This document shows, one piece after another, positions 60,877 to 64,000 of a stretch of 64,000 nt of DNA (positions are counted from its first letter, which is position 1; every line of letters begins with the position of its first letter). Source of the DNA: a virus; IMG/VR virus record IMGVR_UViG_3300021959_000011, positions 1 to 64,000 of that record, one strand, 5' to 3'. The notes beneath the pieces were generated by a model, which saw nothing but the letters and a program-made list of their open reading frames with translations, was not told where the DNA came from and searched no databases. Made by a program: the position numbers and the translations under genes.

Positions 60877-61803
60877 ATGTATAAGCCTGGATTTAGTGTA
60901 GAAGATTTTCGTAATGGTATTGCGCGTACTGGATTATCCAGAGCAAATAAATATGTGTTGAAAATATCTCCCCCGCCCAAGTTGGTTGGTAAACTAGAAA
61001 GTAGAAATCTAGAAGAAATATTTCTTAGAATTGACACAGTAGAATTGCCCGGCAAATCTCTTGCAACTTCAGAGGTTAAGTACTATGGGCCCCCAAGAAA
61101 ATCTCCATATGGAATGACATATGAAGATTTAAATTGCACACTTATGTTGTCTGCAAATATACGTGAAAGATATATTTTCAGTCAATGGATGAATGCGATA
61201 TACGATTATGAAACTGCAAGACTAGAATATTTTGAGAACTATACGACAGACTTAGAATTTATAACTTACAGTGAAGATGGAAACCCGTTAGCTACTACAA
61301 AGTTTGAAGAGGCATACCCATTGTCTATTGGTGCGATTAATTTTGCATATTCAAACGAAGATGTTGCAAGGATGCCACTAACATTCGCATATAGAAAGTG
61401 GGTAGAAACCGCGCCAGTTAAATTGAGTGGTGCGGTATCTCCATACGGTAGTCTTGCAAACGCACAGCAGTATTTATCATCAGAAGAATATGGAAATTCT
61501 TTTGAAAGATTTATTAATCAAGCCGAATCAAGTAGTCCATTCGGACAGATAGCTTCGGGATTTGCAAAACTAGGTGGGGTGGATGCATCATTAAATTCCG
61601 TAGTAAATAACATGAGTAGTATACTAAACGAACCATTTAGTGCAGTACAAGACTTTGGTAACAAGATAACTGCATCATTAAACGAACCATTTAAAGAATT
61701 TGGTAATTTACAAAATAGAATTAGTCAATTTAATCCAGTTAGTAGATTACAAAGTCAGGCGAACAATTTTGTCAAGAAAAGATTTGGTGGACTTTTCGGA
61801 TAA
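60877..61803 (+). CDS. gp54: Baseplate tail-tube initiator gp54
   Basis: Encodes 308 aa (T4 gp54: 320). The opening YKPGFSVEDFRNGIARTGLSRANKYVLKI parallels the T4 MYSLEEFNNQ start. The core has the tube-fold strands ILRIDTVELPGKSLATS-like, YEDLNCTLMLSANIRERYIFSQWMNAIYD (near 85-115) and the later YPLSIGAINFAYSNEDVARMPLTFAYRKW (near 160-190), as in gp19/gp54 proteins. The C-terminal 100 residues are helical with two NEPF elements (SILNEPFSAVQDFGNKI, SLNEPFKEFGNL). gp54 starts the tail tube on gp48. GAGGAA ribosome site precedes. In T4 it lies beside gp48; here the two face opposite ways. Confidence 0.85.
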   Translation: MYKPGFSVEDFRNGIARTGLSRANKYVLKISPPPKLVGKLESRNLEEIFLRIDTVELPGKSLATSEVKYYGPPRKSPYGMTYEDLNCTLMLSANIRERYIFSQWMNAIYDYETARLEYFENYTTDLEFITYSEDGNPLATTKFEEAYPLSIGAINFAYSNEDVARMPLTFAYRKWVETAPVKLSGAVSPYGSLANAQQYLSSEEYGNSFERFINQAESSSPFGQIASGFAKLGGVDASLNSVVNNMSSILNEPFSAVQDFGNKITASLNEPFKEFGNLQNRISQFNPVSRLQSQANNFVKKRFGGLFG

Positions 61804-61831: not shown

Positions 61832-62569
61832 ATGTCTTTACCTATTATTAACCAACCAACATATGAGTTGACTTTACCATCAACAAATAAAACATTAAGA
61901 TTTAGACCTTTTTTGGTAAAAGAAGAAAAAATTCTTTTAATGGCCCAAGAGGGGGGAGATATCGATGAACAGATTGAATCAGTAAAACAGATAGTAAGAA
62001 ATTGTATTGTTTCTGATACTAATGTAGATACTATGTCAACATTTGATATTGAATATCTTTTTATTAAAATTCGTAGTAAATCTGTCGGAAATATTATTAA
62101 TCTAAATTATAAATTTGATAACTGCACAGCAGAGTTAAATGATGATAGTACTGTACCAAGAATTTGCGAAGTACCATTTGAATTAGACTTAGATGAAGTA
62201 GTAGTTAAAACCGAAGGAGAGCACAATAACATTATCAACATAACCGACGATGTTGGTGTTGTGATGAAATATCCAGATTTTAAATTATTAAGTAAAATCG
62301 CATCAATGAATAATTATGATGAACTAATTGATGTTGTTGGTAATTGTGTAAAAATGATTTTTATGGGAGATGAAACATATGACCCCAGTGAATATAAATC
62401 AGAAGAATTGAGAAATTTCTTTGAGAGTTTGAGTCAGGAACAATTTCAAAAAGTTAGTAATTTTTTTGAAACAATGCCACAAACAATGGCAAATGTTCGT
62501 ATACAATGTAAAAAATGCGGAAAGATGGAAAATATTGAATTAAAAGGTATATCGGATTTTTTCGAATAA
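61832..62569 (+). CDS. gp26: Baseplate hub assembly protein gp26 (with -1 frameshift site at its end)
   Basis: Encodes 245 aa (T4 gp26: 208). Family features: NKTLRFRPFLVKEEKILLMAQ (residues 19-39), VRNCIVSD, STFDIEYLFIKIRSKSVGNIINLNYKFDNC (near 70-100), VMKYPDFKLLSKIAS (about 148-162) and the C-terminal CKKCGKMENIELKGISDFFE. The Cys pairs DNC...RIC and CKKC might form a small metal site. A GAGGAG ribosome site precedes the ATG. The last codons GAT TTT TTC GAA TAA contain T TTT TTC, so a fraction of ribosomes could continue in the -1 frame; see the extension entry. T4 gp26 acts in hub assembly and with gp51. Confidence 0.85.
   Translation: MSLPIINQPTYELTLPSTNKTLRFRPFLVKEEKILLMAQEGGDIDEQIESVKQIVRNCIVSDTNVDTMSTFDIEYLFIKIRSKSVGNIINLNYKFDNCTAELNDDSTVPRICEVPFELDLDEVVVKTEGEHNNIINITDDVGVVMKYPDFKLLSKIASMNNYDELIDVVGNCVKMIFMGDETYDPSEYKSEELRNFFESLSQEQFQKVSNFFETMPQTMANVRIQCKKCGKMENIELKGISDFFE
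62557..62563 (+). promoter_or_regulatory. -1 frameshift slippery heptamer T TTT TTC in gp26
   Basis: X XXY YYZ heptamer in the gp26 reading frame (GAT TTT TTC), six bases before its stop. A slip by one base moves reading into a frame that is open for 58 more codons. The heptamer type (U UUU UUC) is among those known to support -1 slippage. Confidence 0.65.
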
Positions 62570-62739
62570 CTTTATATCATGAAAGTTTGGGGTCTCTCTA
62601 CCAAACAAATTTTTCTCTTATGCAATATCATAAATATAGTTTAACAGAACTAGAAAATATGATTCCTTGGGAACGTGAAATATATGTATCGTTATTAGTT
62701 AACTATTTGCGTGAACAAGAACAGAAACAAAAAGGCTAG
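62563..62739 (+). CDS. 58-residue extension made by -1 frameshift from gp26 (gp51/gpGT-like)
   Basis: The -1 frame, open from 62539 past the gp26 stop, reads RITLYHESLG, SLYQTNFSLMQYHKYSL, TELENMIPWEREIYVSLL, VNYLREQEQKQKG and stops at 62737-62739. The fused product would be 302 aa (244 of gp26 plus 58). The PWEREIYVSLL motif and acidic-basic helix look like a conserved protein, not random translation. A free-standing ATG at 62620 would give only 39 aa and has no ribosome site, so frameshifting is the better explanation. By layout it corresponds to lambda gpG/gpGT, and by position may be what is annotated as gp51 in relatives. The role would be tail or hub assembly chaperone. Confidence 0.65.
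   Translation, partial: RITLYHESLGSLYQTNFSLMQYHKYSLTELENMIPWEREIYVSLLVNYLREQEQKQKG
62585..62606 (+). other. Hairpin downstream of the frameshift site
   Basis: Inverted repeat GTTTGG / CCAAAC with a ten-base loop, about 22 bases after the heptamer. Stimulatory elements usually sit 5-9 bases after the site, so this may or may not matter. It is short and of modest stability. Confidence 0.35.
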
Positions 62740-62747
62740 AGGATAAT

Positions 62748-62996
62748 ATGGAAATGACAGAAAACAGAGATAATAAATATCAAAATTGGATCGATTTGGC
62801 AAAGGCCGTCGATTCGTGGAGAATCTTTCCAAGACTTTTTATTACGACATACATTTATTTACTGTATGCAGTAGTAAATTGGTTCATGACATTAGACACA
62901 CCAAATTTAGAACAATCTGGTTTGGTTAGTATCGTTGTCGGTGCCGGTGCTGCATGGTTTGGATTATATTTGGGTTCAAGTAAAAAGGCTGAATAA
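62748..62996 (+). CDS. Small two-helix membrane protein, possibly holin-like
   Basis: Encodes 82 aa with a GAGGA ribosome site before the ATG. Two membrane segments are predicted: residues about 28-48 (LFITTYIYLLYAVVNWFM) and 58-76 (LVSIVVGAGAAWFGLYLG), with a positively charged, helical N-terminus (RDNKYQNWIDLAKAVDSWRIFPR) and a short Lys tail. Size and topology fit a class II holin or a small virion/tail membrane protein. It sits between the gp26 unit and a coiled-coil protein whose start overlaps its stop (TAATG), not beside a lysin, so holin is only one option. Confidence 0.55.
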   Translation: MEMTENRDNKYQNWIDLAKAVDSWRIFPRLFITTYIYLLYAVVNWFMTLDTPNLEQSGLVSIVVGAGAAWFGLYLGSSKKAE

Positions 62997-64000
62997 TGGC
63001 AACTTTAGATTCCGTAATAGAAAATATTAATAGTTTTAATAATACAGGACAACTATCACAGGCACTAGAAAGTGTCTCTGATAGTTTAGAAACTGGTACT
63101 GGTGTCACTGCACTTGGTGAAATTTCACAACTCATCAAAACACAAGGTGATATGTCTGTTAAGGAATTAAAACGTTCAAGAGAAGATTTAGCATCTCTTA
63201 AAGATAAAGTATTAACATCTGATAGAATTGCAGAAAAAGATAGAAGTAATATTCTAACTCTTATTCAAAATCAAGAAGATGTAATTAATCAAAATACTAC
63301 ATTATCAAAAAGAGCTGCAGAGTTTGTCCAAGAAAATATTAAAGAAAAAATACCAGACATTGCTGGTGTTGCAGCAGGGGTACTTTCGGAGAGTCCAGCG
63401 GCCGCTCTTGGTGTTAAGTTTATTGGTGATAAAATCCAAGAGAGTAGAGAAAGAAAAAGAAAAGAAAGAGAAGAAAGAGCTGCAAGATTGCAGAGAATTG
63501 CAGACGAAGAAGATAGGCATAATAGAGAATTAGAAGTACTACGTGGACAAATAACTAACGAAGAAACTCTTTCTAAAGTCAATATGACTCAACAGGAAGC
63601 TGCAGATATTGCAAAACAAAATGGGATGGATTATCAAGATTATATCAATGACTTAAAAAATCAATTGATTGAACAATCCAAACTACAGAAACAACAAAAA
63701 GATGTTCAAGAAGCAAAATTAAAAGAAACTGAAGAACTAAAAGATAAATTTGGTTTTGATCAAAGTGGGGCCCCAGTAACAGAAAGTCCTATTGGGCCTG
63801 GCAATCCATCTACCCCATCAGAACCACTAGAAACATTATCTGATGGTGGTGGCGAACCATACCTTGCAGAAATTAGAGACTTGTTAAAATTTATGTCAAG
63901 TCCAGATACAGTGACTCCATTTGACATAGAAAATAGTAGAGAAGAACGTAGATTTCAAAAAGATTTGGCCGCAAAAGAAGAGGCAGTAATTGAACAATTA
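62996..64000 (+). CDS. Coiled-coil virion protein, possible tape measure/hub protein (3' end outside window)
   Basis: At least 335 aa, starting with ATG overlapping the preceding stop and running off the right edge. It is strongly helical: residues about 35-110 and 140-260 are coiled-coil prone with highly charged stretches (SRERKRKEREERAARLQRIADEEDRHNRELEVLRG). A Pro/Gly/Ser-rich linker lies near 255-280 (APVTESPIGPGNPSTPSEP), and helices resume with LAEIRDLLKFMSS. In T4 gp29 (tail length determinator) follows the gp26/gp51/gp27 group, so a tape-measure or hub role is plausible from order and coiled-coil content. A hydrophobic segment near 120-140 (IAGVAAGVLSESPAAALGVKF) is unusual for a pure coiled coil and is typical of tape-measure proteins. 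Function stays unassigned. Confidence 0.6.
   Translation, partial: MATLDSVIENINSFNNTGQLSQALESVSDSLETGTGVTALGEISQLIKTQGDMSVKELKRSREDLASLKDKVLTSDRIAEKDRSNILTLIQNQEDVINQNTTLSKRAAEFVQENIKEKIPDIAGVAAGVLSESPAAALGVKFIGDKIQESRERKRKEREERAARLQRIADEEDRHNRELEVLRGQITNEETLSKVNMTQQEAADIAKQNGMDYQDYINDLKNQLIEQSKLQKQQKDVQEAKLKETEELKDKFGFDQSGAPVTESPIGPGNPSTPSEPLETLSDGGGEPYLAEIRDLLKFMSSPDTVTPFDIENSREERRFQKDLAAKEEAVIEQL

Follow-up and report, generated by a model that had tools for sequence, protein, structure and literature searches.

The gp26-type gene of this virus, an uncultivated marine T4-type phage, very probably gives two products, a short form ending at the gp26 stop codon and a 302-aa long form made by programmed −1 frameshifting, which would act as a chaperone pair. 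Most ribosomes would stop at the gp26 TAA and release a short tail-assembly chaperone, while some would slip back one base on a T TTT TTC heptamer, where the two Phe-tRNAs would pair anew with TTT TTT, and translate 58 more residues to yield the long form. Together, the products would represent a short/long pair (TAC-N/TAC-NC, like gpG/gpGT of phage lambda) serving in tail or hub assembly, and lineages such as T4 would carry the same two forms as separate paralogous genes, with gene 26 encoding the short form and gene 51 the long one. Slippage itself, the frequency at which it occurs, and how the two forms share the work are inferences; by analogy with known pairs, the short and long forms may act together. 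The features of the locus are collected in Table 1; the window is the whole stretch of DNA analysed, 64,000 nucleotides from the start of the viral record IMGVR_UViG_3300021959_000011.

Table 1. Features of the gp26/extension locus and its neighbours (window coordinates).
Feature	Coordinates	Strand	Basis or remark
Tail-tube-like gene, upstream	60877..61803	+	phrog_45 tail tube, E 7.8e-34
gp26-type ORF, short form, 245 aa	61832..62569	+	Pfam T4_baseplate PF12322, phrog_150
Weak SD-like stretch AAAAGGT, candidate upstream stimulator (inferred)	62542..62548	+	Ends 8 nt upstream of the heptamer
Slippery heptamer T TTT TTC	62557..62563	+	Sequence; same place in relatives
−1 frame extension, 58 aa + stop; "gp51" of marine T4-like phages	62563..62739	+	phrog_634
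Weak hairpin GTTTGG...CCAAAC, candidate downstream stimulator (doubtful)	62585..62606	+	Folding
82-aa ORF, downstream	62748..62996	+	phrog_10198, E 7.4e-21, unknown function; SD AGAGGA
Start of 847-aa ORF, candidate tape measure by position (inferred)	62996..64000 (record end 65539)	+	

The short form is assigned to the gp26 type by profile matches to PF12322 (E 8.7e-58, 196 bits versus a curated cut-off of 24.5) and to the baseplate hub family phrog_150 (E 2.6e-60), and its start is preceded by the ribosome site GAGGAG. The 3′ end of the gene reads GA-T TTT TTC-GAA-TAA, with the heptamer in the X XXY YYZ register and the stop codon at 62567–62569. The heptamer thus lies in the gp26 frame where the preliminary description had placed it, though three bases (GAA) and not six separate it from the stop. 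The −1 frame is open, as had been described, from 62539 to the TAG at 62737–62739, and the proposed product of 302 residues agrees with the anatomy of the reading frames (244 residues from gp26 plus 58 from the extension). A stop-free run of 58 codons has a chance probability of about 0.006. Taken alone, the heptamer is weak evidence because gp26 is AT-rich and bears two further in-register TTTTTTN sequences, at 61909 and 62461.

The 847-aa ORF downstream (62996–65539 of the record) has no confident family match; at the corresponding position, phage HTVC008M has an annotated putative tail tape measure gene. Beyond this ORF, gp32-like and gp59-like genes lie on the other strand. No T4-type single-frame gp51 beside a separate gp26 appears in the 140.9-kb record, which is possibly incomplete: PF12322 and phrog_634 match it at one place each, both at the gp26/extension locus, so that no separate long gp51 was found there.

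Conservation of the locus was followed in 164 sequences retrieved by similarity to this same gp26–extension pair, comprising 80 viral loci from the gp26 search, 80 from the extension search, three reference loci, and the window. The extension is present in 162 of them; the two sequences lacking it came from the gp26 search, and in both the contig sequence ends at or soon after gp26. Each of the 162 extension-bearing loci encodes it in the −1 frame and has an in-register TTTTTTN at the 3′ end of its gp26 (TTTTTTC in 117, TTTTTTT in 43, and TTTTTTA in 2). After dereplication at ≤85% nucleotide identity, 95 loci remained, and all retain the heptamer, the three variants numbering 77, 16, and 2, respectively. 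Moreover, in 95/95 loci, T is the last base of the codon ahead of the Phe-Phe pair, regardless of whether this codon encodes Asp, Ser, Asn, Ala, or Gly. All 95 loci likewise use TTT for the first Phe, compared with 72% TTT among Phe codons elsewhere in gp26. The log10 probabilities of these two regularities, calculated from gp26 codon use, are about −21 and −13, respectively, values that are overstated since the loci were taken as independent. Of 95 Phe-Phe pairs located elsewhere in gp26, only 16 conform to T TTT TTN. As judged from these alignments, the codon preceding Phe-Phe and the first Phe codon are under synonymous constraint. Because the heptamer is kept at the same spot in all related loci, with or without near-duplicates, it is more than a chance occurrence; a chance heptamer is rejected by this conservation, though the motif by itself is not rare in gp26. 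The persistence of the heptamer in close relatives, which the preliminary description had named as a check on its proposal, thus turned out in its favour.

The extension itself matches phrog_634, the baseplate hub assembly catalyst family (E 1.4e-27), and aligns from its first residue with gp51 proteins named "baseplate hub assembly catalyst" in 611 phage records. The first residue after the slip is Arg in 73/95 loci and is followed by Ile, Leu, or Val, the sixth is His in 85/95, and N16, F17, P35, E37, and R38 are invariant across diverse loci. Conservation of the protein, anticipated in the preliminary description, begins with the first codon after the slip, ahead of most in-frame starts. 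The median dN/dS of the extension is 0.15 over 139 pairs, a value that places the extension under purifying selection. NCBIfam gave no match to gp26 or to the extension, and a sequence search of the PDB found no relative. One might take the extension for a decaying remnant and the frameshift reading for a product of chance in AT-rich sequence, as the window is indeed AT-rich and gp26 holds other in-register heptamers; the low dN/dS, the five invariant residues, and the occurrence in several hundred phage records refute this explanation, which retains practically no probability.

Another explanation is that the extension is a separate small gp51 gene of about 45–60 aa, whose translation starts near the gp26 stop by reinitiation or coupling, and that the poly-T is incidental. 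Most marine phage records do annotate it as a CDS of its own. In the window, the in-frame starts are ATG 62620, ATG 62659 (inside the conserved core), and TTG 62587, none of which has a ribosome site; the next gene, starting at 62748, has the site AGAGGA. The preliminary description was thus right that ATG 62620 lacks a ribosome site but wrong in calling it the only ATG of the frame. Among the 95 nonredundant loci, 50 contain some ATG, GTG, or TTG within 48 nt of the slip, which could serve a separate gene; however, a start codon of any kind combined with an SD-like stretch within this distance was found in only two, a start overlapping the gp26 stop in only five, and in 62 the first in-frame ATG comes at least 18 residues into the extension. 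The positions of possible starts vary, yet the residues upstream of them are conserved. Hence, an ATG with its own ribosome site, sought in close relatives because it would have spoken against frameshifting, is not consistently present there. In more distant relatives, the outcome of the same comparison is mixed: KVP40-type phages, phiM9, and phiM19 possess an ATG that overlaps the end of gp26 at its stop codon, as do Cygsa01 and K362, which favours a separate gene, yet TTTTTTN is kept in the first three of these. Taking into account also the invariance of the heptamer, the fused form of T4 gp51 (see below), and the lack of an annotated gp51 in S-CAM1, a separate gp51 gene is rejected for close relatives, which have no consistent start or ribosome site, and is on the whole very improbable. 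The conserved heptamer, the conserved extension, and the want of a consistent start in close relatives together argue for the frameshift that the preliminary description had proposed.

Further signals surround the slip site. SD-like matches peak 8–10 nt upstream of the heptamer across the 95 loci, and a match of at least 5 nt occurs in 46% of loci, compared with 28% of synonymously recoded controls and 11% for segments elsewhere in gp26; the match before the heptamer in the window is only 4 nt long. The region downstream is more structured than recoded controls across the 95 loci (mean z −1.29, SE 0.20), and a strong downstream structure was sought in the window by folding and was not found there (z −0.3). 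Both signals are supporting tendencies across loci, not proof. In dnaX, an SD-like element stimulates the ribosomal −1 shift at a similar upstream spacing. The same data bear on the idea that the long form arises by transcriptional rather than ribosomal slippage on the T run. Long homopolymer runs can cause polymerase slippage, and in 16 of the 95 representatives the run has at least seven T, six being the usual number; however, most runs are just six T followed by C, the register is the one expected for tandem tRNA slippage, and the SD-like element is enriched at a spacing near that of the dnaX stimulator. We therefore give transcriptional slippage a chance slimmer still than that of the separate gene.

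The relationship with T4 clarifies the nature of the long form. In T4, gp26 and gp51 are both classed as hub assembly chaperones; the particle does not contain gp51, although its assembly depends on this protein (PMC3004832). Both share the PF12322 domain with the phage described here, the domain spanning residues 1–206 of T4 gp26 and 1–201 of T4 gp51, and the C-terminal remainder of gp51 past this domain matches the extension. In addition, both T4 proteins belong to phrog_150, to which gp26 aligns at profile positions 14–235 and gp51 at profile positions 13–280. When 137 fused proteins are combined into a profile, gp51 of T4, Thanatos-2, and IME13 aligns to it without a break at the junction, whereas T4 gp26 ends there. 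Homology is claimed on the strength of PF12322, of phrog_150, and of the alignment to the fused profile because the profile of gp26 alone matches gp51 proteins weakly, with 1 of 300 shuffled controls scoring comparably. By these comparisons, T4 gp51 is homologous to the complete gp26–extension fusion but is encoded in a single frame. The earlier guess that the extension may be what is separated as gp51 elsewhere thereby becomes more precise: the name gp51 in marine phage records refers to the extension itself, and in T4, the counterpart of gp51 is the entire fusion. The difference is in gene organization, since T4 has two genes on opposite strands and here there is one gene with an overlapping −1 frame. 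Given that the slip site is conserved, that T4 gp51 is homologous to the fusion, and that T4 gp26 reaches no further than the junction, −1 frameshifting seems to be how most of these lineages produce the short and long chaperones, and two paralogous genes how T4 does so.

The −1 extension together with TTTTTTN was also detected in Vibrio phages PG216 (Schizotequatrovirus) and D484, Aeromonas phage AS-zj (Ceceduovirus), Sinorhizobium phages phiM9 and phiM19, Acidovorax phage ACP17, Pseudomonas phage Astolliot, and Nitratidesulfovibrio phage SRB7757. Members of the Kyanoviridae, S-PM2, P-SSM2, and HTVC008M, have the same arrangement, slip site, and extension as the window, but their gp26 and gp51 are annotated as two genes. 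Annotation of the extension varies among other records as well. In cyanophage S-CAM1 (locus L162, 2001–2191), it is conserved and gp51 is unannotated, while other cyanophage records set the gp51 start at varying points. In AS-zj (L169, 2007–2174), an unannotated extension follows TTTTTTC in the −1 frame, and a similar omission may explain why gp51 was reported missing in Aeromonas phage Aeh1.

In the Vibrio loci (L166 and L170), phiM9 (L167), and phiM19 (L168), TTTTTTN is accompanied by an ATG overlapping the gp26 stop; therefore, frameshifting and reinitiation could both operate in them. Phages CBA120 (L175, 2810 onward), K362 (L177, 2723 onward), and Cygsa01 (L174, 1935 onward) carry a −1 extension behind gp26. 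The heptamer is absent from these three, with ATT TTC or CTT TTC in its place, and in K362 and Cygsa01, an ATG overlaps the gp26 stop. Tentatively, and with somewhat less than even confidence, frameshifting can be regarded as ancestral in the wider T4-type group and as replaced in certain lineages, by gene duplication and in-frame fusion in T4-type Straboviridae and through loss of the heptamer in the CBA120/K362/Cygsa01 group. If frameshifting is indeed ancestral, the extension in the latter group would need a non-canonical shift or stop/start reinitiation.

By its arrangement, the locus can be likened to lambda gpG/gpGT and P2 E/E+E′, in both of which a tail gene has a −1 slip close to its 3′ end and yields a short and a long form; the lambda slip heptamer is G GGA AAG, unlike T TTT TTC here. 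Tail-assembly-chaperone genes of T4-like phages had already been identified by Vladimirov et al. 2022, as cited in PMC10885494 and PMC12846349. According to the former, some T4-like phages have a short gene copy and a longer fusion copy, and according to the latter, poly-T −1 signals are known in their TAC-N genes. That work and the present case thus both concern a short and a long chaperone in T4-like phages, whereas the title of the former puts the emphasis on a mechanism different from frameshifting and the phage considered here is an uncultivated relative. A literature search for a gp26/gp51 frameshift found no paper on this pair directly. It is well supported that the frameshift in this phage adds a further case to the T4-like chaperone genes already in the literature.

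The proposed mechanism accounts for an old annotation puzzle, the gp51 of marine T4-like phages that looks truncated by about 200 residues. In the main text of Sullivan et al. 2010 (PMC3037559), cyanophage gp51 is described as having about 20% of the full length, with the first ~200 residues missing, and frameshifting is not mentioned for it. If the long form is made by frameshifting, nothing would be missing from marine gp51 because gp26 supplies the N-terminal part. If this is true, the gene model is wrong or absent in many phage records. The mechanism also offers for study a number of natural cases in which gene duplication would have taken the place of frameshifting.
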